This document shows positions 1,777 to 54,000 of a DNA stretch of 64,000 nucleotides, in pieces. Source of the DNA: Asterochloris sp. CNOR1 (taxonomy: Eukaryota > Chlorophyta > Trebouxiophyceae > Trebouxiales > Trebouxiaceae). Location of the stretch: positions 3,534,001 to 3,598,000 of the forward strand of contig OZ017749.1 of the NCBI GenBank assembly GCA_963969365.1, read 5' to 3'. The notes beneath the pieces were generated by a model. The model was given only the letters and a program-made list of their open reading frames with translations, was not told the origin of the DNA and searched no databases. A program made the translations under genes and the position numbers. Each line of letters opens with the position of its first letter. Positions within the stretch are counted from its first letter, which is position 1.

Positions 1777-3767
1777 ATGGCAAGACTCCTGCAGCTGCTG
1801 TGCCTTCTTCTGGCAGGATCTTGTGTCATGGCGCAGGTGCGTGCTGCTGGGCGTTATCTCGACACCTGTTATCTTGACACCTCCTGTGGCCCCCATCAGC
1901 TGTAGACAGTGTCTCTCAGTCTTTGCCAGATCTGCAAAGCAACCACCTGCTTCCAGCTCCAGCAGCCATACCTTGGAAGGCACTCCTTCCCCCTGCTTCT
2001 GTGCATGGGTACTTTCCATTGCTGCACCAGCATCAGCTGCTGATGTGACTGCGACAGCCAAGGCAGCTATGCGCATGCCCCTTCTGCTTCAGCACCTGCA
2101 GTTGTCCGAGAGCTGCCCCTTAGTAAAAGGCCCTGGTCCCTTCCAGCATCCTGCAACTCCATAGTAGCATCCCTTTGCACACCGCAGGCTAGATCACCAG
2201 TCTCGTGGCTACCACCCCTGCCACAAACTGGTCCTGTAGTTGCCAGGTGGCCAGATCTCAGCAGTATCACCAACATGTTGTTGGGTTGCATGCCTGACCA
2301 GAGGTCTATGGCCTGCAGGTGGCAAGTGATGGCCATGCTGTGGCAGCTGCGCCACCACTGAATGCGTCTGCAGCTGTAGCAGGTGGGTGCAGCCCAGTCC
2401 CTGATTACAAGGCATTGGCTCCAAACAGCCACCCCGACTGCTGCCTAGCCTGTTGCAACATGGCACAGCATGATCCATCCAACAAATGCTTTTATTGCTG
2501 GCGCCCATACATGTTGCCAAGTTTCTGAGGTGGGCCCGTCTCGCAACGGCTGGTCCATCCATGATTGTGGTGGCAAGTGCGTCATGTCCCAGCACGCTTC
2601 TGCAGAGCCTGGCTCGCCATAATACATTGTGCCCCCTGACACTGCTCAATGTTCTTTACCCAGACTGCCTGCACTTGCAGAGGCGAAGGATTCCAGCCAG
2701 ACCTCCCTCACAACTTGCACTATGCTTTTGGCCAGACATCCATCACAACCCTGCATCGTGCTGACACATGCCTTTCTGCAGCCGTAGAGCCTGAAGCTGC
2801 CAGCAGCACAGATCCTGCATATGCCTGGACTGCGCTGACATCTGTTCAACTGTGCCTGAGAGCCTGAGTCCACCAGCAGCGTCTTCTGCGTTGGTCAGCT
2901 ACTCAACCTGGGGCAGTCGTCAGTGTGAACCTTGGATCGCATCGATACCTGTCTGCATGCACCTGCAGGGCCTGTGGCCATCAGCCACAGCACCTGCCCC
3001 CGATCGTAAGGCAGCCAGTAACAGTCATCCTCCTGGTCTCTGACATGCGCATACACCTGCCTGCCTGCAGAACCAGAGCCTGAGGCCGCCAGCAACAGCA
3101 CCTGCCCCTTGATCGTGCTGGCCCCCATTCTGGAGGCAGCCTTTGAGGAGGCCACCGCCCTGGGAGCTGTCATAGTGGAGTCCATTGCACCTGCCCTGGT
3201 CACAGCGGCCGCGGGACTCAGCGAGCCTGCGTTTGAGGAGGCTGTGGCGCTATCAGCAGAGGCGGTGGCCAATGCAAGCTTTGTGCTGGCCGAGGGCTTG
3301 ATGGAGGCTGTGGCAGACGTTTACCCTGGTGAGCATGGGGCATTACTGTCACGATGGGCTGGCTGCCTTGGCAGATCTCACCAGCCCAGTGGCTGCACTG
3401 GCTGAGGGCCTGGTCAAGGCTGTGGCTGTAGTCTATACCCTGGTCAGCTTTTGGAGCTGTAGCAGCTTCCATCATTGGGCTGGCTGCCAGCTGGCTATTC
3501 TTGTGAACCTGCCAGGCCTTGCTGGCCCCTTCATTGCAGTGTCATGTTTTGCACAAGGGCCACTGACAATGAAAGGGCCCAGTGCCAATGCAGGGGCCCG
3601 CATAGTGATTGGGCCTGACAGCTTACCATTCCCCTGCCTCTGCAGAGTGCGAGGGTGAGGACTTGAGCACCATCTCAGAGTATCTGGTCCTGGCTGGCTT
3701 TGGGACAGATGTGCTGGTCCCAGCCACAGAGCTGGAGGTTGAGCCCCCAGCACAGACAGCAGGCTAG
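1777..3767 (+). CDS. Secreted hypothetical protein with signal peptide
   Basis: The first exon, 1777-1836, encodes MARLLQLLCLLLAGSCVMAQ, a classical signal peptide (hydrophobic core, small residues before the expected cleavage), and is followed by a gtgcgt donor. A later exon, 3071-3328, gives an acidic, Ala/Val/Leu-rich amphipathic segment with two N-glycosylation sequons (NST, NAS) and internal repeats of the type AFEEAxAL. The last exon, 3646-3767, joins in frame (G + AG gives Glu), encodes CEGEDLSTISEYLVLAGFG and ends VEPPAQTAG with TAG at 3765-3767. One or more exons between 1837 and 3070 are needed to fix the phase and are not resolved. No known domain was recognised. It is probably extracellular or cell-wall associated, given the signal and sequons. 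Confidence 0.6.
3286..3490 (+). repeat. Tandem copy of exon end plus donor region
   Basis: The last ~43 nt of the exon ending at 3328, with about 75 nt of the following intron, recurs as a diverged copy starting near 3398. Exon text ctggccgagggcttgatgg matches ctggctgagggcctggtc, and tttaccctggtgagc matches tataccctggtcagc. Both copies then share a gatgggctggctgcc-like downstream stretch. The copy offset is about 112-121 bp. The second copy lies in the intron and its donor is altered (gtcagc). Confidence 0.6.
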
Positions 3768-4159
3768 ATCCGTTTAAGGTCCCCCATTCTTGGAAGCATC
3801 AGAGCGTCGACACCTTGAGAGAGTCTGCCTCATATTGTCCAGCCACCCTCAGCTGTGTTACCTTTGTTGAGAACCTGCTCCAGAGCACTCAATTGGCCAA
3901 TACAAGACCCCGATGTGCAGGTGATGACCTGCTGCTCAAACTTTCCCATTCCTCACTCCGTTGCATCTTTGATTACTGGTTCAATGCTGAAGGCCACCAC
4001 GTTTGAAGTTACTTGACGCGGTCACAAGACTGTCAGAGGCATTCATATGGGCCTGACCCTCTACTCAAAAACAGGCAGGAAGAATTTCATCTCTGCTAAA
4101 GCCTTGCTGAGCTGAAGGCGCTTGACAGAGATTTGGTGACAGGGATTTGGTGATAGGCT
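3768..4159. other. Convergent 3' flanks
   Basis: This lies between the stop of the secreted-protein gene (plus) and the stop of the S4 gene (minus, 4160). I see no conserved coding here. It probably holds the two 3' untranslated regions. Confidence 0.4.
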
Positions 4160-6196
4160 TCAAACCTGCAGGGGGCAGGCACAGCAGCTATCAGGGGCAG
4201 GCAGGGCAGCGGCACAGGCACTTGCCCAAGTGGGGGCCCCAGCACTGGTGCAGACAGTGTCTGATGAAAGTTGCTATCACCCATCATGGTAGCATGACCC
4301 AAGCACAAAGTACAGACAAGGGCTGCCAGCCCAGCCTACCTTTCGTGAGTAGAACTCCACAATCAGCAGCTCGTTGACTGTCAGCTGGATGTCAGCCCTG
4401 TTGACGATGCCGTTGACGACTGCTGACAGGGCGGACTTCTGGAGGGTCAGGTGCTGAGGCACCTCTGATGCCCCCCGGTCCAGCTCCTCGGTCACCATGC
4501 GCCGGCTCTGCTTGTGGGCATGCACGCCAATCTACAAGCCAGAAGGAAGAAGTCTGGAGATGCAGGAGTGAGGCGTCAGCAGATGAATGAATAAACCCTG
4601 CCTGTGGCTGCTGCAAAGATCCGCAGTGGCTGGGGTCACCTCACAGGACTCTACATGCACTGCCTGTAGCACACAGCACCCAGTACAGACGCATTCCAGC
4701 CCTCACCTGCTGGCCAGGCTTGCAGGAGAAGCTGGCAATGTTGACTTCCTTTCCATCGACAGTGATGTGCCCATGGTTGACGAGCTGCCGCGCTGCTGCC
4801 ATGGTGGGCGCAAAGCCCAGGCGGAAAACGGTGTTGTCCAGCCGCATCTCCAGCAGCTGAAGCAGGATCTCGCCAGTCGAGCCCTTCTGCTTCCTGCACG
4901 GGCGCAGGGCAGAAGTCAACAGCTGAGTCTGGGCCACCGCCCCCGCAGGCAGAGAGCACTATGTGACATTCAGCAAGCATGATCACGAGGTCTCAGTTTG
5001 CGCAGCCACAGCCATGCTCAGGCCCCACTTCTGCGTTTCCTGCAGATGCAGGACGAGGCAGGGCACAGCAAGGGCAGCGGCAGGGTCTGGAGCCTGTTCT
5101 GTTTCCTGCACAGGCGCAGAGGGTTACTATAATCAAAATGTCCAGCAGGCAGGCCCTTGTATGTATGGAGGCTCCTTCTGCTCCTGCAGCAATGTGAAGT
5201 GCGGACGGTTCATTCTGCTTTGCACTAGAGCGCAGGGCAGAGCTGCGTCTGTCTGGAATGGGGGTTCAGCAGCTGCAGCAGGATCTTGCCACTTGAGCCC
5301 TTCTGCTGGCTGAATTCGCCGAAAGAGTACCTCATAGGCCTGCCGCATGCAGCCGATGAGCTGCTGCCCTTCAAGCGCACATGCAGCACAGGAAAGCTTG
5401 AGCAGCAAGCCCCAGGCTGGCTGTCACCTACAAGCAATGCATCGTCTGGCCGACCAGATATGTACGGTGAGCTGCAGCACCCCGCCCAACATGTCAGAGT
5501 CCCCTGCAGCTCAAAGCCAGTGCCTTGCTCGTTCAGCCGACCCCTGCCACCACCAGCTTGTCTCACCTGGCCTGGCGGATGTAGTTGATGAGCTGGTGTT
5601 CGCTGACGCCATAGTTGTACCTCAGCTTCTGCTTCTCCATCAGGCGGATGCCATACTGCGAGGGCTTCTGGGGCTTGGCGCCATGCTGCCCCGGCGGGTT
5701 CTGCTTCTTGGGCGTCTTGGTGGTCAAGGCTGGCAGCTCTCCGAGGCGCCGCACGATCCTGAGCTTGGGCCCGCGGTACCTGCTCATCTCTGTCACCTGC
5801 AACTGGGACTGGCAGCCTGTCAGCCTGGGGTTGTTTAGGTGGTGTTCATCTTCTACTGCCTGCTGCCATGCCTGAGGTGGGACCCTCTGGATCCTGCAAA
5901 CACCTCTGGACCTGCAGACATGGGCACAGACAACCTGCAACTGGGATCCTGACAGGTCAGGTATGGATCAGACCGTGAGCCTGCGGCACCGGGTCATCCC
6001 TGTCACCTGTGGCAGGCCTGGGCAGGCTGCCAGCAGGCATCCACTTGGTCTGGCATGCTGTGCTGTGATGTAGGACGGCTGCGCTAACCAGCGGAGGTGC
6101 CTGCGGGGCAACAGGCCTGCAAGCAGCTCTGCTTGCATGCACCAGCTGCCTCAGCCCCTGCCCTGACTGCAGGCGCACCGTCTGACGCTGCCAGGC
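4160..6196 (-). CDS. RPS4: Plastid-type small-subunit ribosomal protein S4, intron-split (nuclear)
   Basis: Ribosomal protein S4 (uS4) binds 16S rRNA and nucleates 30S assembly. The reading is clearly cyanobacterial/plastid type. The exon at 5577-~5815 carries [19 protein letters not shown] and [16 protein letters not shown]. Exon 4707-4893 carries [17 protein letters not shown] and [12 protein letters not shown], the S4 RNA-binding motif. Exon 4340-4531 ends INELL-like, as [13 protein letters not shown], and a two-codon exon at 4160-4165 adds V plus TGA, giving the usual YSRKV end. The frames join exactly: AG + 187 nt, then 192 nt. Upstream, 6007-~6196 encodes an Arg/Ala/Ser-rich stretch suited to an organelle targeting peptide, entering by a non-ATG context. 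A further first exon around 6533-6696 (ATG at 6696) is possible but lies only 112 nt from the neighbouring stop. Green algae normally keep this gene in plastid DNA, so introns plus a presequence point to transfer to the nucleus. Confidence 0.85.
4850..5310 (-). repeat. Decayed copies of the S4 exon start within its upstream intron
   Basis: The acceptor and first codons of the exon at 4707-4893 (plus-strand text ctcgccagtcgagcccttct, then gcttcctgcacgggcgcag) recur upstream in the intron. Matches are tctgtttcctgcacaggcgcag near 5096, ctgctttgcactagagcgcag near 5215, and cttgccacttgagcccttct near 5284. Divergence is about 10-25 percent by eye. They look like stepwise tandem duplications at the 3' splice site, spaced roughly 115-215 bp. 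Confidence 0.5.
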
Positions 6197-6808
6197 GAGC
6201 TAGATGGGAGGCATGCTGCTGCTGAGTGGGCCCTGCAGAATAGTGGGGCTTGGACTGCTGACGTCATGGGTGGATGCTGTGCAGGGGCTTGCAGTCTGGT
6301 CGCTGCGGCACTACTTCATGACATCCCAGCATTGCTGTGCACGCCTGTCTGAAGGACTGAGTGCTCCTCATTTGTTGCTGCTGCTGTTGACCCTGCCTGC
6401 ATGCAGCCTTCATGCAGACAGCACGAGATTGCCATGCAGGTAGAGCAGCATGGGCCGGTCACGTGCTGCTCAGCCCCCCCCAAGTGGTGGCACCCAGTCA
6501 ACAGATCTGGTGTCACATCTGCCATGGACCTCACCTGTCTGCTGGCTGTGCCACATGTTGGGCAAGGCATGGCCACAGGCAGAGCCCGTCCGCTCATGTG
6601 GGCCGTGCTCTGCAGCGGCATGGTGCGTGGCCGCAGCAAGCCTGCCTGCATCTTCCCCGTTCTTGCCCACGCACTGGCCGGCGCCTCTCTGTTCAAGTAG
6701 ACGTTGACCTGAGACGCTATCTGACAATACCTGATTGCTGCATCTTCTCATCTATTATCATGCATTCGCCAAAAGGCTACACTGTTAGGCTCACTCAGGG
6801 CTGTGTCC
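6197..6808. other. Spacer between two minus-strand genes, possible S4 first exon
   Basis: The minus-strand frame 6533-6696 begins with ATG, is rich in Arg, Ala, Ser, Met and Pro, and ends at a gtgagg donor (AGACAG/gtgagg). It could be a presequence exon of the S4 gene. It could equally be the 3' untranslated region of the Trx-UBX gene, whose stop is at 6809. No other coding was seen. Confidence 0.3.
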
Positions 6809-9262
6809 TCAGGACTGAATGACAAGGGCATTTTCCAGCTGGGCATCCTGCAAGGTCTGCTTTGGGTCGGTGAGGGTTGTGGAGGGGTATTGAGTCTTCA
6901 GCTCAAAGCCAGAGCCCATGCCAGGGTGGCTCTGCTCCACAAACCTGCAGCAGACAGGCGCCCTCAGGTGCTGAGCTGCTTGCTGAGCCAGTACGCTCAA
7001 CAAGCGCTCTGCCCTGTCTGGTGCTCCTCCAGCAGGGGCTGGGCCGCAGTGCTCATGCCAATGCCACATTCATACCGCTGCCTCATCCCACTCACTTTCT
7101 GATGTCCCCAACAGTCTGGCTGAGGTTGAAGGTGCCCTTCAGCTTGCTGCCATCTGACATCCTGACTTGGATGTGAGTGGTGGGCTGCGAGGGGTCGGCC
7201 CCAGTGGCAGCAGTGTTTGCTGCAGCGCCACTGGGGCTGGGCGCGGCGCCATTGTTGCCTGCAGGTGCACAAGCAAGGTGAGGAGCTGTGAAGCCATGAT
7301 GTCCTGCAGAAGCACGGCCCATGCAGTTCCCTGTGTGTATATGGCTGGCAAACTACTGCAGCATGGTGCCCAGGCGGGGTTGCCCGCTTTATAGCCATTG
7401 AGCACCTCATACAAACAGTGCGCAGAGAGCACATGCCCCAGAAGTCAAGTGCCATTCGTAGTCAGCGGGCTCTTGTACACAGCAAGCTTTCGTCTGCCAA
7501 GGCAGTGCAGACTAGTCCACAAACCTGCCGTCAAGCCATCCACCCCTGCTGTGGCCCACACATCAAAGCAACAGCCACTGCTCAGCATTGCTTGCGTCAC
7601 ATGCACATTTTGGGAGGGGCATCTGCCATGTTTGCTCTGAGGTAGGGCACCTCCCCTTCAAGGGAATACTGCCCCGCGTAGCTGTCACCCGACAGAGGCA
7701 AATGTCACGCCCACCTCCAAGCTTCTGCCCGCTGCCCTGAAAGGGCCCGCTGATCTCGTTGTACTTCTCAGCCATCTGCTTCAGCCAGTTGGGGTCGGCG
7801 CCCTGCTTGGTGTCCACCTGCACGCAAGAAATGACTGTGGTTGGCAACAGGGGTGCTGCAGAGGGATTCAACCTGCATGGGGGCAGCATCAGGACTCAGC
7901 TCTAGGAGGCATTAGCGACTGCTGCAGAACAGTGCTGGCCTGGCACAAACTTCACTCAAAAGGTCTGGCTCCATGCCCAGACAGTGTAGGGTGGACTGGT
8001 CCATGGCAGTTGGGACCGCAGCATCAGGATGCTGCGGCTGAATCAGGCACAGCTTGCTGGCTAGCTGCAAGAGCAGCAGCCACACCGCTCAGCACTTGCG
8101 GGTCTGCCAGGACCAGCATACTTTCCTGGCTAGTGCTGCTGACTTGAAGGTGTCCTGTGGCCTGATGAGGCATCCGCTACCAGTGCTGCCCAGATCATGC
8201 ATTGTGGGAACAGCATGCTCCTGCCATCACCTTGTTGCCCTGCCAGAACAGGAAGAAGGTGGGCATGGCGCTGACGCCCAGCTCTGCCGCGAGGTCCTGC
8301 AGCAGTGGCACTTGTTGCTGCAATGCTAGGAGTGCAGATGCTGTATACTTATGCTCCTGAGGCCCCAAGCAGTCTTGGCCTTCATGACATGCACAGACCC
8401 GCCACCTAACATATGTGCCCGCTCTGCCCCAAACAGTCACGCTTACTCTAGAGAGTCTCAGGGCGAGCACCCTAATCATCACCTCATATTACCGTCAGGC
8501 AGCCCCATGCAGCAGGCGGCTGGGCCTCAACTGCAGATGCACCAGGCAGGCTAAGGGCGCCAGTGTTACAGTGCGGGATGCTGCAGTTGCAGCACCTCAG
8601 GCATTGCAACAGTGGCCAGCAGATGCACTCCAACCAATGAGGTTGATGCTCTCACCCTGGCCTTGTCCACGTCCACCTTGACAAATAACATGTTTGAGTA
8701 CTGCAGGACAAGTGTTTGTTGCAAAAGGGGTTGTTCTCCTGATTGCATGGGCACTGACTCATGCAGCAGGCCATGCGTGCAGAGCAGCACGCCACAGCAC
8801 GCGGCATGGACACAGGCAGGTGGCCAACTAAATGCAGACCAGCATGCCACACAGCAAGGCACCCGCCTGACCTGCTCGCTCATCCTCTCGATGATAGGGG
8901 CAATCTGCAACATCCAAGGCAAAGATGTGCGAGGGACAAAGTGGGAGGCTGCAAAGCCAAAAGCTCCTCCGTACCATCTTGCAGGGCCCGCACCATGCGG
9001 CGTACGCATCAACTAGAACCTGCACATGAGCATAGTGCAGGCGTCAGCCTTCATGGGACTGAGGCAGAGGGCATCAGACCTCTGCAGGCATTGTGCATGT
9101 GGTGCTGTGATTTGTGTCAGCAGGTGCTGGAAGTTGATCTGGCTCCTGTCACCAGTGAGTCCAGAGCATCAGCTGCTGCACGCTCACTGCTTGGCTCTTG
9201 TTCTGCTCAACCTTGGCCCGGAAGGTTGCAGTATCGTTGATCTCAATGACCTTGCCTCCCAT
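6809..9262 (-). CDS. Thioredoxin-UBX domain fusion protein, 221 aa
   Basis: Eight exons join in one frame with no residue left over: 9188-9262, 8975-9019, 8872-8904, 8656-8700, 8231-8296, 7715-7817, 7096-7258 and 6809-6944 (666 nt including TGA). Residues 1-~110 are a classical thioredoxin: MGGKVIEINDTATF, active site AAWCGPCKM, VKVDVDKA, the cis-proline segment GVSAMPTFFLFWQGNK and a final helix. A Gly/Ala/Pro/Ser linker (~125-155) leads to a UBX domain (~157-221): THIQVRMSDGSKLKGTF, a VGDIRKF helix, FELKTQYPSTTL and TLQDAQLENALVIQ. UBX domains dock on the p97/CDC48 ATPase. The usual FPR/FPN loop is YPST here, so p97 affinity may differ, while the beta-1 arginine is present. No targeting peptide is apparent, so it is likely cytosolic or nuclear. 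A role in redox handling of CDC48 clients is inference. Confidence 0.88.
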
Positions 9263-12027: not shown

Positions 12028-12114
12028 CCCCGCAGATTGACAAGAAAGTAGGCAGTTTGAGACACTCGAGGCTCTCGTCAGTGCAGCCCGCCTCAGCAGC
12101 CTAGTGCAGCAGTG

Positions 12115-15100
12115 ATGAAGTCAATCGGGGCTCCCATGTTCAAAGTGGCCTTGCTACTGTTGCTTGGCAGCTTTGCAGCACATGCAGCCAGGCAAAAGTC
12201 AGGGAGGCTGCTTCAGGATGATACAACCATACTGGCAGTCAAAGGAGGTGTGCAACTCTCCTGCTTTAGCGCCTGACTTTGGTGCAGGGCGTGTGGCTCA
12301 ATGCATGACTGCAGCTGGCTACATATGTGGAGGCCCCCTAGCTTGGCAAAGCCCTCAATGCAAATGCAGTGTGGGTTCACCTGCAGGCCCCGGACGCGCA
12401 TTGCTGAACAACCCCCTCACATCTGCCCCTGTTGCAGGTGCGTGCATGCCTGTACTTGCCCTGTGCTTCAAACAATCCTGGCAGGTGTCACGCAACAACA
12501 ACACACAACCGCCAGGCACATGCTGTGCTGCTTGCCTGTTGCACTTGCACTTGCCAGCATGTGCATCGATGTGCACCTTGTTCTTAGCCTGGTCACTCAC
12601 AAAAAACCTTTTGCACCTGCCTGCAGTTGCCACAACAGCTACGCCTGTCAAAGCCACACCCAGCCCTGTGGCACCCACCCCTAGCCCGACTGTGAAAGCC
12701 ACAGCCCCACCCGCAACCCTAGCCCCTGTAGCCACCACCGCTGTGCCCACAACCACAACTGCCCCAGTGACCACTGCTGCAGTAACAACCACAAACGCAC
12801 CAACCACACCAGCTGCCGACAGCAGGCTCACAGCGCTGGTCGCCGTGCTGGAGGTGTCAGGGGAGGGGATCCTCCCAATCGACTCTGCCAAGCAGGTTTG
12901 TACAGCAGTACCTGTGTCATATCTCTTGCACCCCACATTTGCCTTCTTCTCTAAGATGAGGCACCGCCTGAGCAGCCAGGCAAACACAGAGGTCAGGCTG
13001 TCAGGCGCAAGCAGCTGCCAGTTTGTGCTGTCCTGTGCAGGCCAAGCTCCTGCTTGCTTTGGCAGACCTGATGACAACTGTGACAAACCCTAGGAGCAAC
13101 ATCCTGGTGGCAGGAGCCAAGACAGTGAGCACCACTGCAACAGTGGCCCCCACAACGACTCCGGAAGCGACCACAGCCGCACCCACCACAGCAGGTGTGT
13201 CTGCTACCCGGCAGGTGCACATGATGCAATGTCCAACCCACTGAAGAGGGTCTGGAGGTATTCCTCCAGTAGCTGGCTCTGCAGGCAGCACTGTATCTGC
13301 ACTTGGCATGCAGCTCGACACTTTTGGCCTCAGTTGATGCTGCCAAGTAAGGACTGCATCCTGAGTAGCCCCTTGGCTTCAAGGGTGCTGCCCAGTAAGA
13401 ACTGGAGGGCAGAACGTCTCCCCGTGACTGTGTTTGGGAGCTCTGTCTCTTGAGGCCCATAAACTCAAGTGTTGGCTGGCCACTGCTATATGCAGCCCCC
13501 ACCACGGCAGCGCCAAAGGTGACCACCGCAGCCCCCAAGGCCCCAGCTACCACCACGGCTCCTACCAAGGGCAGCGTCGTGGTGGGACGGCGCCGGCAGC
13601 TGCTGCAGGGAACGCAGGAGGTAGCGGATATGACTGTGGAGGTTGACATGGGGTCCGGCAACGCTGCTGCGGTGTCAGGGGCCTCTGACCAGCTGGCCTC
13701 CATAGCCAACAGCGGCCTGCTCAGGGTGAGACATGGGGCTGGCACTGACAGCTACAGGTGACAGCGTGTGGGGCACTCAGCCAGCTGGCTTCTGTGAGCT
13801 AACAGCACCTGGCGCAGGAGTGAGAGACTGCTTCATCTGTAGAGTAGCTGGCAAGTGAAGCAGGGATGCAGACAATGCCAAGCCAAGCTGCAGCAGCAGA
13901 CCAGAGTGCCAGCTGTCATGAGGGTCCCCTGGCAGCAGGGGTGATGCTGTGTGGACTTCATGGCAGCCACCTGCTCAATGACAAGGCTTGCAGCGCAACA
14001 CTAGCAGCATGTCTTGAAGGCTCGTGCCGCACTAGCACCCTGAGAGCCGCCTGATGCAGTGGAGCACTGAGCCTTGATGCTGCCAGGGGCTGCACAGCCT
14101 GGCTGCTGGACTGTTCAGCTAAAGCTCTGGGCTGCGTCTCCCCTGTGGCCCGGTGCAAGTCAGTCAAGCTGAGCACCTTGACCTGGTCTCCACCTTTCAC
14201 TGGGCTGTCTGTCGGCTGGCAGCCTGACGCTGAACCCCAGCTCGTGGCTGCAGTCCAACTTGTTCGCGCGGGGCGTGTCGCTGGGCAGCATCCAAGTCCT
14301 GTCCTCCCAAGCCAGCCTCCCAGGCCTCACCAGCGTGACGTGCCGCCTGAACAGCAATAACGAGTGTGCAGGTGGGGCAGCCTGCATCTGCTTGATACTG
14401 AAGTTGTCCAAGGCAGCACTGCTGCCTGCTGAGCGAAAGGGTCTTACAGGGTCACACCCCTGCATTGTGCATAGCCATGCCTTCAGGCCGGGGCAGCAGC
14501 ATGCTAGCGCAAGAGCATTGCAGCCAGCCTTGCTCATTGGTCAGCGGTGGGCGCTGTAAAGGTACACCATCAGGACTGTCCGTCTGTCTAACATGCTGGC
14601 TCCATGCTGTGCCAATACCTCCGCTCGAACTCCAGACTGTGCATGCAGCCAGAGCACTGAGCTTTTGTTGCAGGCAGCAGCAGCGACACCGGCAAGATAG
14701 TTGGCATCATCGTGGGGGTGGTGGCAGCTGTGGTGCTGTGCATGCTCATCCTGATTGTGGTGCTGCTGCTGCGGCGGAGGCGCCTGGCCAAACAGTCGGC
14801 GCAGCAGCCCGTCCCCAAGCAGGTGTGCTGCATGGACATGAATGGGGGCACGCGCTTGACCCAGGCAGCTGTCCAGCTGCAGTCTGCGCAGCAAATGGGG
14901 AGACATGAACTCTGGGTGGAGAGCTTGCCTGCCAGGAGCCAGTCATGGTGCCTGCCATGTTGGTCCGGCTGCAGCCTGGTGCCAGCTGACACCAGCGGTT
15001 GCAGCCGTCTGTTCAGTCTTTAAAAACTTCATGATGCCTGTGGACTGTGGCTGGACAGTGGCCACGCCCTGCAGCTGCTTTTTTTTCAGGCACTGGGGTT

Positions 15101-18185: not shown

Positions 18186-18546
18186 CCCACTGCGCAGCTG
18201 TTTGATGAGATTTGAACTCACTGAACCATGCATTTTTAGGAAGTGCGACAGTTTGCTGAGTAGCGCTCTTCATACAGGTAGAGATCCTTCTGAGCACCAT
18301 CAATGCAAACGCAGCCCAAGTTAAGTTGCCATGTTGACAAACACTCAGCGCATAGGTTCTGGCAGGATCTGGGTCCAGCAAAAACAAGGGGGCAAATGCC
18401 CAACAGCAGCAGGTTGAGGGCACACAGCAGGCATTTGCCGTGGTCAAACCATATAGGCATGAGGTGGGGTGCACTGGAGACACTGAATGACCTAAGGGAT
18501 ACTCCTAGAGGTGGGTCGTCATCTGATCTGCGGGAGAGTCAGCAGG
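18186..18546. other. Convergent 3' flanks
   Basis: This lies between the stop of the membrane-protein gene (plus, 18185) and the stop of the Kelch-BTB gene (minus, 18547). No coding or structured element was recognised. Confidence 0.4.
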
Positions 18547-36045: not shown

Positions 36046-36112
36046 CTGGGGGTTGAGTGCATGAAATGAATCAAGTCTGGCAAACTCACTGACTCGACTG
36101 AGAGCCCTAGAA

Positions 36113-38081: not shown

Positions 38082-38600
38082 GTGAAGTGCCCTCGCTAGG
38101 TCTGCTGTTGTCAGACTGATTTCTCAGTTGCCCAGCAAGCAATGCTGCTTCAGTGCATGACAAGTGCTTTCAGCTCCAAGACATTAGTCTGGAGCTGGCA
38201 GTCGCCCGCTGCAGTGGGAGCACGCGTGGACACCTGGCAGTAAACCTTTTAAGATATTTGCTTTCTTCCAGTCTCGGGCTCTTGACTCGCTTCCGCTGTC
38301 AGAGAGTTGACGCTGCTTCACGGAACTCAGTTCCAGGAAGTGCCGTTTACCCAGTCGTTGATTCTTGTTGTGAGGCGCCTCACCACAACGGACGCACTTT
38401 CAGGCAACGGGGAACGGAGATCTCTGGTGCGCTAGGTCGCACGAGGATGCCACAGTAGATTCTGCAAGTAACAACCTGCTGAGAGCCCAAGCCAGTGTCT
38501 GACTCTGAGTCTGCCTCAGACACTGTGGCTCTCTGCCTGCAGGCACTGCCACTGCCTTGCTTTGAGGTTGGCCTGCTGTTCAGCTCAGAAGAGCTGTGCT
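38082..38600. promoter_or_regulatory. Divergent spacer, OTU protease / Pumilio
   Basis: This holds the 5' flank of the OTU gene and the unresolved 5' part of the Pumilio gene. A short plus frame opening with ATG at about 38156 could encode the first Pumilio residues, but no junction could be confirmed. No core promoter motif was recognised. Confidence 0.3.
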
Positions 38601-41600: not shown

Positions 41601-44600
41601 CCAGGCCTGCCCCCCCAGCAGCCGATGTACCCTTACATGCCATACATGCAGCCAAGCATGGCCCAGCAGGTAAAACCCAAAAAGGGGCCAGCTGACTGGG
41701 GTCCTGCCTGCTTTCCAGCCCCCTGTCTGTTGATCTGCTACTCCACCTGCAACTGCGGCAGCCTGCAGACAGTGCCTTGTGCAGTCTAGCAGCATTGGCT
41801 CCTCTGCACGCAGCCCAGCCTGAAGCCTCACAGGCAGATTCCCTGCACATTGGCTGGCCGCTGTCTGTATGGCAAGGCAGCTTTGTCCCCTTGTAGGTGC
41901 CAATGTATGGGCCCAACTACATGATGCCCTTCTACCCACCCATGCACCCAGGGATGATGCCGCTGTACCCAGGCCCACGGCCCATGCAAGACCCCCTGGC
42001 AGGTGCGATTTGAGTCAGCGACTCAATGCTGCATGGCTGCCATTTGTTGCAGCCTGAAGTGTCAGGGCTGCAAGGCAGGGTGCACACTGTCACAGCCTGG
42101 CAGGGCTGCACCTCCATCTCATGGCAGGATGTGCAGGGGTTTGAGGACAGGGATATTGCATTAGTCAGTGACCCTCCTCCTATTTGTGGGCAGGGAAGAT
42201 CTTCAGCCTTTTGTCATCTTCTGCACAGATACTCTATCCAAATCAGAAGAGTGTCATCATCTTGGAGTTTGCCAATTTGATTCACGGTCCCATTCCTGCC
42301 TGTGGCAGGCAGCACTCGCTCAACGCAAGACACCTCCTGTGCCGCCAAGGCCTTCCTTTGCAGGCAGGTAGCCTTCATGTAGCTCACAGCATCAGTGCCG
42401 CACTGCAGGGGGCTGTTCAGATCTCATGCATCCCGGCCTGCCCCATACAGCTTGTCTCATCGCCATGCCTGCAGAGTTTACATTGCACTGCAGGGGGACC
42501 TCCGATACGCAGGGGCATGCTAGCGTGCCATGATTCGAGGGCCACGCTGATTGCACAGCACACAACTCAAGCGCTAGGCACACTGCAGGGCCCATGCTTG
42601 ATGACAGGCGCCAGGTGCTCCATCTTTCCTGGTGCTCTGAAGGGAGCCCAGCCAGTGCCCCACGGCATGCATTCCGGCATGCATGCGCATTATAAGTTGG
42701 CAGGCGCCCCTCTACTTGCTTCTGCTGCTTGCAGGAGGCCACGGCAAGCTGAGCGCATGCGCCCTGACATGCAGACACACCCCACAGCACCTCCCGCAGC
42801 TGCCTGCCGGACACAAAGCAGAACGGCCCCTGTGCTGCAGGGAGTCCAGCAATGCCCCAGGGCATGAGCCCGGGCTTGCAGGAGCAGGCCAGCCCAGTGC
42901 GGCCCTTCTTCGTGCCAGGGGCTTCGGGGTTTGACCCCCAGTTTGCGGCCTACTACCGCATGCTGGAGCAGGGGGCAGTGGCGCCCATGATGGTGCCCCC
43001 CATGTATGGGCTGGAGAATGGGAAGCCCATGATGCAGGCTGAGCGGGTGAGCCATGAGCCTGGCACTTGAGCTGCTGCTGCATCATGGCGGGGCGCCAGT
43101 GTGCAGGATGGCAGCACTGGCAGGTGACAAATTTTCGTTGGAAGGCCATGATTACGTCATGGGCCTGCCTGTCTTGGCTCCTGGATGGCTTGACAGACGC
43201 TGTTCTCACTAGTCACAGGCTGAATCAAGCTGCCCCACATAGGCCAGAGCATGCTCCGGCCTTGAACACATTGCCAACCCTTTCTGTGCGTGCCCTGCAG
43301 CGACCGCCTTCCCGCAGCAGCACAGATGCAGGGCTGCAGCGGCGGTCCAGCAGCGGGTACAGCTCTGGTTCATCTGCCAGCGGGGCAGCCAGGTGAGTTT
43401 CTTCAGAGGCTGGTAACTGCAGGCTGGACTGAATATCTACTGGCTGGCTGGAAGCTCTCAAAGCAAACCTGCATGAAGGGCAATGCTGCCAGATCTTTTG
43501 AGAGCCACATTGCATGACAGCCGCTTTCTGACAGGCAGCGATGGCATCAACACTGCAATCCTTCAGCAGCAGCTCCTGATGCTGCTGAGCTCGGCACAAC
43601 CTTTTCTGAAGCTGTTGGTCAAGGTCTCAGCAGGCAGCTGAACGCATGCAAGGGAGCATGCCTTTGACACTCAGTGCAAGCGTCCTGCATGCCTGGCTAG
43701 AGCCTCTCCCCATCACCTTTGCTGATGCAGGAGCATGGAGAGGCCTGGACGTATGGGCAGAGGAGGCTGGGGGCCCCGCCCAGCCAGCAGCCATGGCGGC
43801 AGCCCTCTGGTGCCGGCTGGACCCTCGCAGGTGTGTACACACACCACCAAATTCATAGAGCAGGTCAAGTCCTTGTTTGGTGACTCACCTGTGGCAGCCC
43901 TCTGGTGCTGCCTGGACCCTCATGAGATGGCATGCACACCGTTGCTGCTACTCGAGTACTTGTGTTGATTTGAGAGGATCGCCCGCACGTGCAAAGCAGG
44001 ACAAGTTGCAAGGCTCCCTGCAGAGCCGAAGCACCCTGTTTCCTCACCTGTCGCCTGTCTGCCTGGCAGCTAACGAAGCGATCATGCAGGTGCAGGTGCT
44101 GCTGCAGCAGGGCCTGGTGCAGCCCAGCGCTGTGCAGCTGGACGCGGCTGCGGTGGTGGAGCACAGCCAGAAGGCGGCTGCCCTGTTGGAGCGCTTCAAA
44201 AACTCCCACAAGCGGCAACAGGCATTTGAGCTGCAGGTCGGACTCTGCTCCGCAAGCAAACAGGCTGTGCATGGGTCAACTTGGTGCCTGCAACATCTGA
44301 CAAGCACAGCTGCAGCAGGCTCTTTGAGCAAGCTGCCGACATGTGCCTCAGCTGGGGTCTGTATCCAGCTGACGAGTTCCTTGCGCTTGGTTGCTGGTGC
44401 TTGTGCGCCTACTGCGGCAGCCCAGCTGCTGCTCTGCCAGCATCACACATGCTGCTGTCAAAGCGGTCCCTGCCAGGCCTCTTGCTGTCAGGGGACGAGG
44501 CCTTGTCTGCAAGTTTTGCAGCAGGCAGTTGTTCCCGCATGGTTTTCTGCCTGCTGGCTACATGTCAAGGGCCTTGTGATGGAGTTCTGCTGTGACCAGC

Positions 44601-47600
44601 TGATGTCACACCTGGCCCCAGTTGCGCTCCTCATCAGACTGCAAAGTGTCCAGCCCTTATCGTGGTCTGCCAGCTGTGGACCCTCACGTGAGACTTCCTC
44701 ACTGCCAGCGGGCAAGGTGCAGGACGCCAAGGGTTTTGTCTTGGGTTCTGCCGCTGCCAGCAGATGTCACACTTCCTCCAACTGCGTTGTGCCTGGATCG
44801 CCGAGGCTTTGCATGTGCTGCGTCTAGGACGCCAGGAGCCAAAGCATGTGCCTCTGACACATTTGCAGCTGCCTTCATCTGACTCCCTGCTGGTTGTCTG
44901 GCTGCAGGACGCCAAGGGCTTTGTCTTTGAGTTCTGCCGCGACCAGCACGGGTCGCGCTTCATTCAGGAGCGGCTGGCCAAGGCCTCTGCAGAGGAGGTG
45001 CTGGCGCTGTACAGCGAGGTGCAGCCGCGCATGCTCAGCCTGATGACCGATGTGTTTGGGAACTATGTCATCCAGAAGTTCTTGGAGCATGGGAACCAGG
45101 TAGGCCTGTGTGAGCAGAGGTGCCCTGCCGTTGGACATCTCCTTGAGCAACTGTGTGCATCAGCTTGAGATTGCCCATTGCAACCAGGCAATCCTCTGGA
45201 GTGGGGTGCCTTGCAGCGTCGGAATGCCAGGCCGCCCTGCAGGCACACTGCCTGGGTCAGCTCCCAGCAGCACAGTGTGCACTCCAGGGCCATTCACAGG
45301 CAGGCAGCTGTCTAAACCTGCTGCAGGATGCTGCACAAGCTCCAGGGTGATAATCGCTGTGCATGCCCCAGCCTGTTCCCTGACGTCGTGTTGCCTGCTG
45401 TGCTGCAGGAGGTGCTCGCGAGGATATCAGCTCAGCTGAAGGACCATGTGCTGATGCTGTCCCTCCAAATGTATGGCTGCCGCGTCATCCAGAAGGCGCT
45501 GGAGGTGAGCTGCAGGGGCTGCCTTGAGAGTCTGGCAACTTCCCAGCACCCGTCTTACCTCAACGGTGCTGCAGCTGTGCTGGCCTGCCATGTCACCTAA
45601 CACCTTGTTAGAACAAGGACCCACCTGCAAAGATGCCCTGCTGGGTCTTTCAGCAGCTGCCTTCAGAATTTTGACTTGGATGTGTAGCTGCTGCGTCGCT
45701 TAGGGAGTGCTGCATGCCGCCATAGCCATGATGCGGTTGAAAACTGTAGAGCCCAGATGGAGCATGAGCTGATGGCAGGTTTGCAACCAGATGGTTCTGC
45801 GGCAACAGGTGCCTGTGTGGGTGCAGGTGCTGGCACTGGCAGACCAGCCCCTTACAAGCTGCTGCCACCTGCGGGATGGTGCTCTCGTTTGTGCAGAGTG
45901 CTCGAGCAAAGCCCTTCTGTGAGTGCAGGTGCTGGCACTGGCAGATCTGCGGCCCCAATTAAGCTGCCATCAACAGCTGATTCATGCTCTCTCTGTATGT
46001 TGCGCTCCAGGAAAGCCCATTTGGTGTTGCAGGTGCTGCCAATGGCAGGCCCCTCTTGAGCTGCCATTGACTGCTGCTTCATCTTTGGCTTTGCACACAG
46101 CGCACCAGCAGATGTCCACTTGGCGGTGCAGGTGCTGCCTGTGGCAGACCAGCGCTCCTTGACTGCTGAGCTGGAGGGGATGGTCATGCGCTGTGTGCGG
46201 GACCAGAATGGGAATCATGTCATCCAGAAGTGCATCGAGTGCGTTAAGCCTAGCACAGAGATCAGCTTCATTGTCGAGGTGCGTCTCAGCCCACTGTTCG
46301 CTAATCAAGTTGCCCAAGTAGCTGTTCATGGGGCATACTCAGGGTCTGCATGCCTTGAAAGGCAAGCCTCCACAACTCCCGTTCAAGTATCCTTCGAAAT
46401 TCACCCCAAATGATCAGCTTCATCATTTGAATGCCCTTCATCAGAGGGCCCTCTGCCCTGTTTGATCAAGCATTGCCTGCTGCATAAGAGCCTCAGGTGA
46501 CCACACAAGCGGCTCGCCAGCTGCAAGAGCAAGGCGCAGCACGCAGCAGGTGTCAGTGCCCTTTATGTCAGCGCCCTCTGCCTGAGATCCCTCAAGAGCT
46601 TGCATGGCCTCCTTCAGCACCCTGTCTTGCGCCTCAGGTTGGCACTGTTGCCCCGCAGCTCTGCCTCTCACGCCTCACCGTCCCCTACCATGTGCCATGC
46701 AGGCTGTCCGCAACGGGGTGGTCAACCTGAGCAGCCACCCCTACGGCTGCCGCGTGGTGCAGCGCGTCATGGAGCACTGCGACATGCCTCGCGTGCTGGA
46801 GGCCATTGTGGGCGACATCCTGGCCAACAGCATGGCCCTGGCGGCTGACCAGTATGGCAACTATGTCATCCAGCACACCCTGATCAACGGGCCTCCTCAT
46901 GCACGGTGGGTGCCCATCTGCTTGCTGGTGCTGTGCCATCGGGACAGTGTCCATGGCTTTACCTGCTAGCAGATGACTAGAATGTGAGCCGTGTCAACCA
47001 GCACACTGTGCACGATGAGCGGTTGGCCGCTTTGATGCTGGTGTGGCTCGCTGGGCTAACTGCTTCACTGCTTACCGACCACCATAGTGTGCACAGTGCA
47101 TGGCTGGTTGGCTGCCTATAGGCTTGGCCTGACTGCACTGTACCTGCTTGTCTACACCTGTTGTCTACACCCACTCAATGCAACAGCAGGCCGGCGTGCT
47201 CAAGCTGCCGCAGCTCTGTTGCCAACCCTATGATGTCAGCACCTGTGGCATTGCCTGCCTCTGCACAACCCTGCTACAGGTGCCCGGCTGACATGCCGCT
47301 GCCTGTGCCTGCTTGCTGTGTGGCCGCCTCTCTTGCCTGCCAAGCTGAGACATGCTGAGCCTAATTGGCCTGCCCCTCAGACTACAGCAAACCTAACTGC
47401 GTAGTTGCTGCTGTAACATGCATTGCCGCTGTAGAGCAGATGTTAGGTGCTATTGCCTTTCTATGCCTGCAGGCAGCACATCATTTCAGTGCTGACTCCC
47501 GCGGTGGTGCACCTCAGCCAGCACAAGTTTGCCTCCAATGTGATGGAGAAGTGCCTGCAGTATGGGGAGCCTGCAGACCGCGAGGTCAGCATCCAGTGGC

Positions 47601-48714: not shown

Positions 48715-49126
48715 TCAGCCACCCACATCTATGAAACCTGATCCGCTGCTGGAACCTGCCCTGCTCTGGCCCGAGCCTATAGGTTCTCCTGACATTTGCA
48801 GAGTGCGCATGCTGTCAACATGCCCAGTCACCCGGCCAATGGGTGTGGTTGCACCCACACCCGTCGCTGGGAGCCTTGCCATCAGTTTTGTCTGCTTGCA
48901 CTCCTTGTTGTCTCTTGATCTGACGTCTGGACCCCTGACAAAAGCTCTGACAAGTGCTTGAGTTTCTGTTGAATGGCTTTACAAAGGAGCAGATCTGCGC
49001 CTTTGTACAGCCTCCTCCACTCAAATGAAATGTATGCCAGAGTGCAAGGGAGGCTGGGGGTATACATGACACGCAGGCGTTTGGGGTCAGGCAGTGTAGC
49101 AATTGACAATTGCTTGTGTGGGTGGG
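48715..49126. other. Convergent 3' flanks
   Basis: This lies between the Pumilio stop (plus) and the isovaleryl-CoA dehydrogenase stop (minus, 49127). No coding was recognised. It probably holds both 3' untranslated regions. Confidence 0.4.
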
Positions 49127-51041
49127 TTACTTGGATGCTTCCTTTACCAGCTCGCGGCCAATTAGCATGCGCCGAATCTCACTGGTTCCAGCTCCAATCT
49201 CATAAAGCTTGGCATCCCGCAAGAGGCGCCCAGTAGGGTACTCCTTCAGCAGGTCAATCACAATGACTCACACACGCTGCACCTGAGCTGTGCATGCATG
49301 GTCTTGGGTAGGCAGCAGCGTGGGACGCCAGGCAGTTCCAATGCTGTCACAGAAATTTGTCACGGGGTATCAGTCATGCAGGCAACCAGCCATTTACCAC
49401 AGGAGCATACCTGGAAGCAGCCCTGCCACTCAGCAGATCGCCCTTCAGTATCAGCCCTGCCCAACACCCTCACCTGGATGTACCCATTGCCGCCCAGCAG
49501 CTGGATAGCATCAAGCGCCATCCTGGTGGCATGCTCGGCTGCATACAGAATGACTGCAGCGCAGTCCTTTCTGTCTGCCTGCCCAGCATCGGCCTGGGCA
49601 GCAGTGCGGTACAGGAGTGCCCGGGTGGCCTGGGTCACTGTGTACATGTCTGCCAGCTTGCCTTGCACCAGCTGCAGGGCAAATACAAAAATGGTCTGCC
49701 ATATTCTGCATACATTCAAGCCGTATGCAGAGTGGCTGCTCCCTGGTCAAGCTGAGCGGCTGGTGCTGCATGCACAGCCGCCAATCTGCCATCTTTCCCG
49801 GCACCAGCTACAGGCAACGAGGGAGTGTTCTGCCTGAGTCTGAGCTTTTACACCATGGCTATGCCACTCTTAAAGGTGGGCAGCAGCTGCTGTTTGCCGG
49901 GCAACCTGTTTGCCAGCTTCCCTGGCACCAGCTGTTGGACATATGCAGAGGGCTCTGTCTTGTGCTCCATGCAGAGCTGCACGAAGGAAAGGCCCTGTAT
50001 CAGTTGCAGGGCACATACAAGGTGTGCGCCCGCTGCTGCATGGTGTGGCTAGCATCTCCCCCACGCAGGCTGACACGCTTGTCAATGATGAGCGACTGTG
50101 TCACATGCAGCACAGGTACCTGCCAGCATTTCAGGCACTAGCACAGCAGATAACTGGCTCAATCCTTCTGTGCTGCTTCACGTGGCGCTTCCCTGCCGGT
50201 TTGCCTGCACAGCTTGCAGGGCAGGAGTACCCTGGCACTGTAGGATAGGCTGCATGAAGAAGCATAAAGCCATGGACACCACTAACAGGACTGCTGTTGA
50301 TGTGTGTGCAGAGGACTGCTGCGAGGGGCTTTGTGCACCACCTCAGAACAGACAGTGACCCTTCAGCATGGAGCTGATGCCAGACCGCATGTGGCAAGGT
50401 CAGTGGTCGACACTGCACAGTGATGTGGGGGCATCTGCCGCACATCTCCTATAGAGCTGCCTTGCCGTGCAGCCGCCCCTGGCGATTGTGCCCCCTGCAG
50501 AGGGTGTGAAGCAGCCAGCATGCATGCCAGTTGAAGAGCTGCATGCAAAGGGCAGCAGCAGCTGCGCACCTGAAACTCGCCGATGGGCTTGTCAAACTGC
50601 TTGCGCTCCACCACGTAGGGCAGAGCCACGTCCATGCAGGCCTGCATCAGCCCCAGCGGCCCTGCATTGCCACCACATGTACACTGTCAAACCGTGCAGG
50701 CTAGCAAATGCACGCCTGCATGTGGCAGAAGGCCCTGTACTGCCACCAGTCCGGCGTCTCAGTGTCAGTACCGAGCAGGCTGAGCACTGTCTGCGGTGTC
50801 ACAGCGGCAAAGCAACTCTGTGCAGGAGCAGGTGCTCCCATGCAAGACAGGCTGGACAGAGGCAGAGCCCAGGAACTGGTGCATCTACTTCTCCTTCCTT
50901 GCCTGCAAAGCGGCCCACCTGCTGCAAGCACAAGGCGCTCATAGTCCAGCCCACTCATCAGCCTGCACGCGCCAGCACACAGTTGAAGGGAAACACCAGC
51001 ACTGCCACTTGTCATGGCAAGGCCACCCAGCGGTGCCATGT

Positions 51042-51092
<51 letters not shown>

Positions 51093-54000
51093 GCATGCTG
51101 GCTGGCCAGAGGCATTGTACAGGCTGTGCACTTGAGCTGCAGACCATGCAGCCAAATGACCTCTGGGAAGCAGCCTGCACATGAGCTACATAGGCTCCTG
51201 CCTCTCTGCCTGGTTGGCTGACATAGCCTCCATGCCTCAGCACGTTCTGCTGAGCGGCTCCCTTGCAGCAGCTCACACATAGACTCCCTTGTCCACCTCC
51301 CCCAGCACGTTGTCTGCGGGCACCTCACAGTTCTCGAACACCAGCTCGCAGGTGTCGCTGCCCCGCATGCCAAGCTTGTCCAGCTTCTGCGCCGGGTGGA
51401 AGCCCTGCACCAGAGGGGCACCGCCATGAAGTGCACAGTACTGCACGGTGGTGCACCTGCTGCATCGCGCCCCCACCCTTGCAAAGGGGTTGCTCCTAGT
51501 TGCGCATCTCGCGCGGGGACTGCAGGGGCAAACATGTCAGCCGCCTACAGAGCTGATCCTGCAACACAGTCGCACAGAGCCTTAGAGCTTTAAACAAGGA
51601 GGCGGCCCAGGAGGCTGCCCAGCTTGTCCAGCTGGTGTGCTGGGTGGTTGCCCTGCACCACAAGGCACCCTGGGTGCCTTGATCCCCCAAACATCCTTAT
51701 TTTCCTTCACAAGAGGGCCGTGCGCCAGGTGGAATGCGGTCGGTGCTGGCGCGTTGACTTGCCCCAGCTCTTGTTCTCCTACAATAAAGTATTGTGCAGA
51801 GTGGGGGCCTTACAACATGGCCTCACAGCATTCCAGCAGCGTGCAGAATACAGATGACTGCCTAACTTGCCTGGCTGCTGTGCTGGGTGGAAGCCCTGCA
51901 CCATGACACAATACATGTTTGAATGCCTGATTCCTACCAAAAGCTTTTGTTCTCCCCACAAGAGGGCCCTGCGCAGGGTGGCAGGCCTGCAGCATTGGCC
52001 TACAACACTGCAGCATCATGCAGTAGCTGCCCCATCAAGAGCTGCATCAGCAAAAGGACAGGTGCCCCACAGCACTTGGAGCGCACCAGTGCCACAGCAG
52101 GTCAGCTGAAACTGCCACTGTATCCCCACCCATGGGCCCCTCTCCCTGCTGCTTTCCAGAGTCTATTCTGCTTTCTGACCTTCATTCCTTTCTCAATGAG
52201 GAAGGCCGTAATCCCATGCGGTCCAGCATCAGGCTTGGTCTTGGCGTACACCACCAATGTGTTGGCCACTGTTCCGTTGGTGCACCTGGCACAACAGGAG
52301 AGGAGGCGCTGGCGTTCAGATCACGTGCAGCCCAGGGCTTCCATGCATAGGGTGCGGCATCCACATGGGCACTCTGAGGGCCACACCCATGGGGTGGGGC
52401 ATCGGGTCTGAGCTGATGCCCCTCCAGACCTGTCAGCTGGCTGAGAGTACATGCACAACAGGAAGGGACCTGGCCTGCACATGCGCACCTCCCCAGGCGT
52501 CACCACAGAACTGGCATGCCAAGAGGGGGAACACTGGCTTCACTTCAGGCACGTGCACTGTGATTATCTCATAGCCGTGCATGAGCAGGTTGGGTACTGG
52601 GTTGACCTGACTTGCCTCGACAGGGGCCAGCCGGCTGAGTGTGCATGCAGGACGTCGTGCAATGTTTGAGCGGGTGCTGAAGTGCAGTGGCCTTGGTCCA
52701 CAGTGAGCGTGGACACTGGTTTCACTTCATGTTGGTTTGAAGTGGCCACCTTACAACTACTGCAGGTTGAATGCTGGCCACCCCTCTGGATGTAGCTCGC
52801 TTCTGACCCAGGCCACCAGCTTGCACACCAGCATGGTGCTTCCAAGAGGTCGGCCTCACAGAAAGTCTTTTGTGCACGCTCACCACATCTTTGTCCCATT
52901 GAGCACAAAGGCGCCGCCCCGGTGCTCGGCCTTGCAGCGCATGGAGACCACATCTGAGCCTGCCCCTGGCTCACTCATCGCCAGCGCACCCACATGCTCC
53001 CCTACAGGCGCATGCTCATTCGTAACGGAGCAACAGTGATGCTCTGTGGTGCCCGCTGCACACCCAAACTTTGGACATGGCCAAGTTACGGACCGTTGGA
53101 CAAGCAGATCTAAGGCAGCATCTCATGAAAAACATTGCGACCAGTATGAAGCAGTTTGCGAAAGTGCAGGTCACTGCCAGGCTGACCACACTTCTGGATT
53201 GAGGTGGATCTAGCCACAACAGAGCACCTGCCTGTTAGGAGCTGGGGAAGGTACTTGCGTTTCTGAGCATCTGTGCCGTTCCTCACAATTTGATTGATGC
53301 ACAGATTGCTGTGGGCGCCATAGCTCAGGCCAACTGAGCCAGACGCTCGGCTGATCTCCTGCAGCAAGCAGCAGCAGTCTGCTGTCCCTGACTGACCCTG
53401 CCCGACGCAGTCTGGCCCCTGCCTTGCATGTCAAGATGAGCACAGAGAACATGCTAAAGGCAAATGCTTGAGCCCAGAGCAGGCAGGGAGGCATGTGCTC
53501 ATCTGGGGCTTACCTCCATGGCTATGCAATGTGCTTGGTAGCCCATATCAAGTCCGTCATGCTCTGCTGGCACAGTCACGCCTGCAGGATGCAGTGACAC
53601 CCTTTGATGAGTTGCATCGGACCACTGTGCAGCACACAGCACTCACCCTGCAAGCCAGCCTTGCCTGGCCATGGGGCTTGCGCTGGCCTCAACTGCCTCA
53701 GGATGAGTTACCACACAGGCCAAGCTTACCCCCAGTTCCTGGTGCTGACAATGTCTGTGCACAGCACGACGTGCTCACCATGCAGGCCAAACTCGCCCAT
53801 GGCAGTCCAGAGGTTTCCTGACTTAGGGAAGGCATTGGTCCTGTCAATCTCTGCAGCATGTGGGGCAATGGACCTCTGTGCAAAATCCCTGACTGTTTCC
53901 CGAAATTCGCCAAGGTCATCCTCTGCAGCAGTGAGAGCCTAGGACTAGTGGAGGCAAGACATCCTGTGGCTGGCACTGCAGCCTGACACAGGCCTCCAAC

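Follow-up and report, generated by a model that had tools for sequence, protein, structure and literature searches.

We study here a window of 64,000 nucleotides from the green alga Asterochloris sp. CNOR1 (contig OZ017749.1, positions 3,534,001 to 3,598,000 of the forward strand; "the window" means this whole stretch), and more precisely the introns of its genes, which contain decayed copies of the exon edges next to them. The window is part of contig 4 of a genome of 56.4 Mb in 21 contigs. An earlier note on this DNA had claimed such copies in the genes of a secreted protein, of S4, of a membrane protein, of Kelch-BTB, of Pumilio and of a dehydrogenase, and explicit alignments bear this out in each of them.

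Among the spliced gene predictions of the window, Pfam recognizes S4 (S4/S9 ribosomal protein), BTB, Kelch with SAP, PUF and acyl-CoA dehydrogenase; the secreted protein matches no Pfam family at E 0.001. What the earlier note took for one Kelch-BTB gene is two separate predictions in our gene finder, and the acyl-CoA dehydrogenase prediction is closest, among solved structures, to isovaleryl-CoA dehydrogenase. The copies found at these genes are the following:

2733-2818, plus strand: secreted-protein gene, upstream intronic copy of the acceptor edge at 3071 (70% against 3022-3105)
3286-3334, plus strand: secreted-protein gene, exon end and donor 3328/3329, used copy, aligned to 3398-3448
3398-3448, plus strand: secreted-protein gene, intronic copy of 3286-3334, decayed, with the GT kept and a period of 112 (alignment)
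4851-4896, minus strand: uS4 (RPS9-like), exon start and acceptor CAG, used copy, 87% over 46 bp to 5267-5312
5267-5312, minus strand: uS4, copy of that exon start and acceptor within a 673-bp intron (alignment)
5971-6034, minus strand: uS4, copy of the acceptor edge at 5796 (5761-5824), 72%
13770-13825, plus strand: membrane-protein gene, copy of donor edge 13678-13731 (alignment)
15640-15701, plus strand: membrane-protein gene, exon end and donor 15694/15695, used copy (alignment)
15805-15866, plus strand: membrane-protein gene, intronic copy of donor edge 15640-15701, GT kept (alignment)
21003-21159, minus strand: BTB part, copy of donor edge 21182-21342 (alignment)
23591-23675, minus strand: Kelch part, copy of exon edge 23725-23809 (donor 23721), 73%
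42637-42689, plus strand: Pumilio gene, copy of acceptor edge 42835-42886 (alignment)
43893-43921, plus strand: Pumilio gene, copy of exon end 43798-43826 near donor 43830, 93% over 29 bp
44698-44780, plus strand: Pumilio gene, copy of acceptor edge 44883-44966 (alignment, with a gap of one base); second copy at 44506-44600
45816-46168, plus strand: Pumilio gene, copies with a period of 102 bp ending at acceptor 46132 (self-comparison)
49644-50146, minus strand: isovaleryl-CoA dehydrogenase gene, overlapping copies around exons 49474-49671 and 49854-49976 (self-comparison)
51616-51669, minus strand: isovaleryl-CoA dehydrogenase gene, copy of acceptor edge 51368-51422 (alignment); further copy at 51859-51903

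In the self-comparison, sites in the window seem to carry from one to about three extra copies.

Local direct repeats in six blocks

The sample consists of 314 kb: the window (W) and five blocks of 50 kb taken from contigs 1, 2, 3, 5 and 10 (B1, B2, B3, B5 and B10), with a G+C content of 0.577-0.604 in the five blocks measured. Gene models were obtained ab initio, with a self-training gene finder of our own that uses realistic intron and exon penalties; its training on the 314 kb ended with a set of 56 genes and 660 exons. The 609 predicted introns have a median length of 254 bp, and the exon upstream of an intron a median length of 141 bp. In the retrained gene finder, the donor motif is CAG/GTGAG and the acceptor motif, a strong one, is CTGCAG/G. 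The acceptor is very uniform over the six blocks, with T, G and C at frequencies 0.92, 0.92 and 0.96 in positions -5 to -3. Block B10 was fetched after the edge test described below had first been applied to the other blocks, and its sequence was included in the retraining.

A local pair is defined as a match in a blastn self-comparison with short word size, of at least 32 bits, at an offset of 60-700 bp. In the window, 34 direct pairs and no inverted pair are found at these offsets, the direct ones being abundant at about 95-420 bp. The six blocks together yield 136 direct pairs against 6 inverted ones: 34/0 in W, 4/1 in B1, 18/0 in B2, 31/0 in B3, 21/2 in B5 and 28/3 in B10. In B5, 10 of the 21 pairs are exon-exon and coding repeats predominate; these exon-internal repeats probably belong to a long repeat-protein gene. 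B5 was omitted from the edge-share, decay, exon-part and planting analyses, from the simulations, and from the figures given as outside B5; it was kept in the 40-bp edge test, in the mapping of 43 copies and in both register tests.

In the five other blocks, the period ranges from 95 to 553 bp, with a median of 199: the 100-250 bp proposed in the earlier note were roughly right but slightly narrow. Alignments of the pairs extend over 27-271 bp, and pairs of at least 40 bp are 55-90% identical. These offsets and identities are not those of a minisatellite array, and the periods that Tandem Repeats Finder reports for the window are all within 2-57 bp. One intronic minisatellite lies at 24603-24963, with about 18.7 copies of a 19-bp unit (also readable as 57-bp units), and happens to reach a predicted donor of the Kelch gene; its repeat span, 24570-24968, contributes 5 of the 34 pairs of the window and is different in kind from the 95-553-bp duplications. 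Its pairs were excluded solely in the wider simulation grid and in the edge share of 66/85 given below. The window also contains a perfect (CA)24 microsatellite at 51043-51090.

Three introns were compared to the whole genome. Intron 45506-46130 matches only itself; intron 51405-52179 matches itself and its own exon edge; intron 4898-5565 matches itself, its own exon edge and, over 60 bp at 80%, one place on contig 17. In these three introns the repeats are thus local, as the earlier note had held, unlike introners.

Exon edges, long introns and the age of the copies

In order to measure how often an exon edge recurs in the neighbouring intron, the 40 bp at the end or start of each exon were compared by alignment with the intron next to them and, as a control, with length-matched introns of other genes, a match being a score of at least 16. 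Donor edges match their own intron in 31 of 458 cases, where 1.6 are expected, and acceptor edges in 21 of 479 (1.4 expected): matches are commoner at exon edges than elsewhere, which is what the claim of the earlier note depended on. Deeper segments of the exon behave differently. On the donor side, the segment -80..-40 matches in 7 of 371 cases (1.0 expected) and the segment -120..-80 in none of 276 (0.6); on the acceptor side, the counts are 11 of 396 for 40..80 (1.4 expected) and 3 of 285 for 80..120 (1.0). Reverse-complemented edges match in 1 of 458 donor and 3 of 479 acceptor cases, with 1.4 expected each. Block B10 alone gives 8/69 donor and 5/72 acceptor matches, against 0.2 and 0.1 expected. 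A low-threshold search with long queries, which produced 150 matches against 71.6 in its control, was discarded as evidence.

The copies are found above all in long introns. Outside B5, a repeat copy of at least 25 bp is present in 42 of the 101 introns of at least 450 bp, in 13/99 at 300-450 bp, in 7/148 at 200-300 bp, in 5/82 at 120-200 bp and in 3/62 at 60-120 bp. There is more space for a match in long introns, but among those of at least 450 bp, 25 of 78 match their own edge, against 0.8 of 78 for foreign introns.

The position of the copies is mostly intronic. Among the 115 pairs outside B5, 11 have a junction in both copies; when a single copy lies across a junction, its partner is in an intron 54 times and in an exon 5 times, which fits the use of the outermost splice site. 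In 49 edge copies the duplicated unit crosses the boundary: it combines a piece of the exon with a splice site and some intron sequence, and the splice site itself is aligned in 36 of these copies. The point equivalent to the splice site could be mapped in 34 of 43 copies, and its distance to the far intron end is 31-736 bp; in this mapping, 3 of the 43 rows were aligned to other repeats (exon parts of 382, -203 and -268), and the later measurement on 49 copies used a narrower range. For the most part, the copies enlarge existing introns.

The exon part of the 49 edge copies is short: 22-79 bp, with a median of 38 and none above 80, parts below about 22 bp being invisible to the measurement. 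It is narrow at donors and acceptors alike, the periods being broad (58-552), and it stops short of the far border of the exon in 48 of the 49 copies, the remaining one containing the whole exon. Contrary to this, duplications simulated with uniform breakpoints and similar periods, and passed through the same steps, have 36-37% of their exon parts above 80 bp; in the 37 cases where period and exon permit more than 80 bp, 19 such parts are expected and none is seen. Random neutral duplication does not suffice, and either a filter or an anchored mechanism must be added to it. Masking of long exon parts by the gene finder was considered and rejected: planted copies with 90-140 bp of exon were recovered in 151 of 191 cases, those with 30-60 bp in 151 of 188.

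Few of the copies are young. Outside B5, 108 pairs are at least 40 bp long; a single one of them is more than 85% identical, and not one is above 90%. Of 350 duplications simulated with 0.05 substitutions per copy, 326 were picked up, with identities of 87-89%, so that young copies would be visible. The blocks are free of N and the sampled contigs are megabase-sized, which argues against collapsed repeats, although the sequencing method may still matter. A loss of young copies by a process resembling repeat-induced point mutation was rejected, transitions (172) and transversions (175) being balanced and C>T changes not in excess. In the six blocks, the observed/expected ratio of CpG is 0.47 in exons and 0.32 in introns, and TpG is raised, as methylation-driven decay would give. 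The simplest reading is that the duplication process is old: once active, it then slowed or stopped. The "genome-wide habit" suggested by the earlier note thus survives in part, with pairs in all six blocks; their density is uneven (0.13-0.97 per kb of non-coding sequence), and the habit probably belongs to the past.

How the copies may have arisen

The explanation that we favour, with moderate confidence, combines random duplication, selection and the choice of splice sites. We infer that old tandem duplications of some 60-500 bp, blind to splice sites, would have hit genes across the genome, and that those falling within coding exons would mostly have been purged by selection. A duplication spanning a single border would be tolerated if splicing keeps the outermost site, that is, the first donor or the last acceptor: the mRNA would then be unchanged, the inner copy would become intron, and the intron would gain one period. 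The inner copy would thereafter decay without constraint while the exon copy is held by selection, and exon-anchored pairs would therefore stay recognizable longer than duplications confined to introns. Copies with more than about 80 bp of exon would be lost. Competition in splicing is the most likely reason for this limit, and the one that we prefer: with enough exon beside it, a duplicated site would compete successfully. In 1986, Reed and Maniatis reportedly described, for duplicated splice sites, such a role of exon sequence and of proximity.

The weight of this explanation depends on how much of the concentration at borders it can produce. In 98 of the pairs outside B5, one copy or both are mostly non-coding. 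Of these pairs, 70 reach a predicted junction, 20 lie in non-coding sequence alone and 8 are exon-internal (44, 8 and 8 once the pairs are merged into 60 clusters). The edge share of 0.71 was compared to 300 random shifts of the pairs along the blocks, which give 0.46 (sd 0.055) and at most 0.61: random shift is rejected as its source. Identity is about 70% for edge pairs and about 74% for non-coding pairs. We then simulated random duplications, with exon-internal and multi-junction ones forbidden and with decay under constrained exons, the decay settings being assumed. The value to be reached, the share of edge pairs among edge and non-coding pairs, is 0.78 (66/85 without the minisatellite; 44/52 clusters). 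Simulations rich in indels give 0.51-0.63 at 0.12-0.15 substitutions per site per copy and 0.74-0.81 at 0.18-0.21; with few indels, 0.77 is attained at the older setting of 0.25. Short introns, selection and the slower decay of exon-anchored pairs thus account for a large part of the edge bias, but cannot be shown to account for the whole. The share explained depends on the assumed decay settings; a mechanism targeted to splice sites is possible, but the edge excess does not require one.

Several observations weigh against the favoured explanation. With few indels and at an identity similar to that observed (0.12-0.18 substitutions per site per copy), the simulated edge share is 0.60-0.63, below 0.78, and when the 80-bp exon limit is imposed, settings with up to 0.21 substitutions give a share of 0.41-0.62; some preference for borders may well be left over. 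The limit itself is less sharp in a looser blastn list, where 4 of 79 exon parts exceed 80 bp, and a length-preserving shift of the pairs yields a similar exon part (median 45, 10-90% range 14-108), so that the limit is visible only in comparison with duplications of whole units. Block B1 is nearly devoid of pairs, with 4. The copies contain 2 in-frame stops in 581 codons, where a neutral model predicts 7.7 (P about 0.01): this is the best indication of past coding use, as in a tandem exon duplication, and some copies may once have undergone translation, chance or ancestry being the other possible reasons. Finally, the gene models are ab initio, and that of isovaleryl-CoA dehydrogenase is, by homology, wrong in at least two stretches: in its alignment with 4o5m, 39 predicted residues separate two matched segments, and an insertion takes up about 15 others. 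By position, the 39 residues correspond to the predicted exon 50570-50661 and the start of the following exon. The predicted exon 50570-50661, which falls in a region that the best solved homologue lacks, resembles by eye the start of the true following exon, and some of the error in the gene models may come from the copies themselves.

A rival explanation is a duplication mechanism anchored to exon-intron junctions, for instance through breaks linked to transcription or through the chromatin of exon borders, in place of random duplication with selection. The narrow exon part at both kinds of junction, next to broad periods, points in this direction, as does the edge share, which exceeds its shift null and, with the exon part capped at 80 bp, also the majority of the simulated shares. 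However, random placement with differential decay comes up to the observed share in indel-rich or older settings, and the breakpoints on the intron side look broad. We regard anchoring as a rather unlikely alternative. In a stronger form, much of the length of long introns would come from one ancient burst of border-anchored duplications, with breakpoints 20-80 bp inside exons and linked to transcription, splicing or chromatin rather than to random events and selection; this we hold to be unlikely.

The earlier note had seen a fit with models in which tandem duplication of an AGGT-bearing exon segment makes or enlarges introns. Enlargement agrees with our results; creation as the rule, the Rogers model followed by growth, does not. 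When an intron is created in this way, the two copies lie in register across its two splice sites and the period equals the intron length. In a register test over ±60 bp, only one of 593 introns scores at least 14 (0.4 expected) and four score at least 12 (3.0 expected); elsewhere the copy lies within a longer intron. The single clear case, with a score of 22 where none is expected at 16 or more, is the 89-bp intron 8412-8500 on the minus strand of B2: its copies are 89 bp apart and 79% identical over 58 bp, across both AG/GT sites. The surrounding region, 8393-8540 on the minus strand, is a probable AGGT-type intron region and has an additional copy, 67% identical, at offset 169. With a shorter window, about 11 of 565 introns have at least 16 of 34 identical positions, against 4.1 expected, and 2 have at least 19 of 34, against 0.1. 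Perhaps one intron in a hundred would have been created in this way, to judge from this small excess, and very old cases could have lost their register signal. As a general rule, creation by AGGT duplication is disfavoured, and we consider it quite improbable as the origin of the copies.

Could the copies be functional, as alternative exons or as decoy splice sites that regulate splicing? The scarcity of in-frame stops speaks for it, and so does the conservation of AG in 12 of 15 acceptor copies. GT, on the other hand, is kept in 13 of 21 donor copies, which is about neutral, the expectation from 80% identity being about 0.64 for either dinucleotide. Mismatches in 48 edge copies are spread almost equally over the three codon positions (0.181, 0.172, 0.221), the frame is shifted in 16 of the 17 gapped copies, and the amino-acid identity of 0.635 is close to the 0.609 expected (sd 0.022). 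Periods leave remainders 0, 1 and 2 modulo 3 in 15, 20 and 14 cases, and nearly all exon parts, as seen above, fail to reach the other border of their exon. The copies mostly decay as non-coding DNA, and a function for them is very improbable. It is hardly credible, finally, that the copies are in general an artefact of similarity by chance, of the consensus common to splice sites or of errors in the gene models: splice motifs are strong and a copy can fool the gene finder, as in the dehydrogenase exon, but next to nothing is found in the controls with foreign introns, reverse complements and inverted repeats, and the alignments are 27-271 bp long.

Significance and comparison with known systems

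In compact genomes, intron length is usually credited to transposons. Our results suggest that, in this alga, many long introns were enlarged by tandem duplications spanning their boundaries, of which a readable fossil record is left. If the cut-off near 80 bp is a splicing filter, it would provide a natural measure of the exon length from which a duplicated splice site begins to compete. One case in the window suggests, in addition, that copies of this kind can mislead gene finders. Among open-access titles and the openings of abstracts, we found no report of genome-wide enlargement of introns by duplication of exon edges in an alga.

Several systems share features with the one described here. 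Introner elements are dispersed families of similar introns that change intron content genome-wide; both processes alter that content, but the repeats of the three introns searched are local, with one extra 60-bp match. In plants, small tandem duplications arise through patch-mediated break repair or from paired nicks: they are likewise direct tandem duplications of about 100 bp, with the difference that here a mechanism can only be proposed from old copies. In tandem exon duplication, which yields mutually exclusive exons, a whole exon is duplicated and the frame is kept, whereas a whole exon is found here in 1 of 49 copies, and the frame is nearly always lost in gapped ones.

PMC4974935 describes three closer relatives. 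The first is the AGGT model (Rogers 1989), with its vertebrate case in ATP2A1 (Hellsten 2011): it shares with our introns the local direct repeats at splice sites, but derives both splice sites from two copies of one exon segment, a geometry that is clear here in 1 of 593 introns. The second is the intragenic duplication of entire introns, as cited there, in which tandem duplication is also a source of intron structure; the unit found here is instead one border with at most about 80 bp of exon. The third is a potato gene that acquired a new intron when a duplication extended across an intron-exon border: as here, the unit is local and tandem, and takes in one splice site together with intron sequence and a piece of the exon. 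The potato case, as given in that source, concerns one gene and a new intron; in Asterochloris the duplications are recurrent and old, they affect many genes, and they have mostly lengthened existing introns in which the copy decays. What we describe thus looks like the same kind of event as this known border-crossing duplication, repeated in many genes long ago, and mostly with the effect of enlarging introns.

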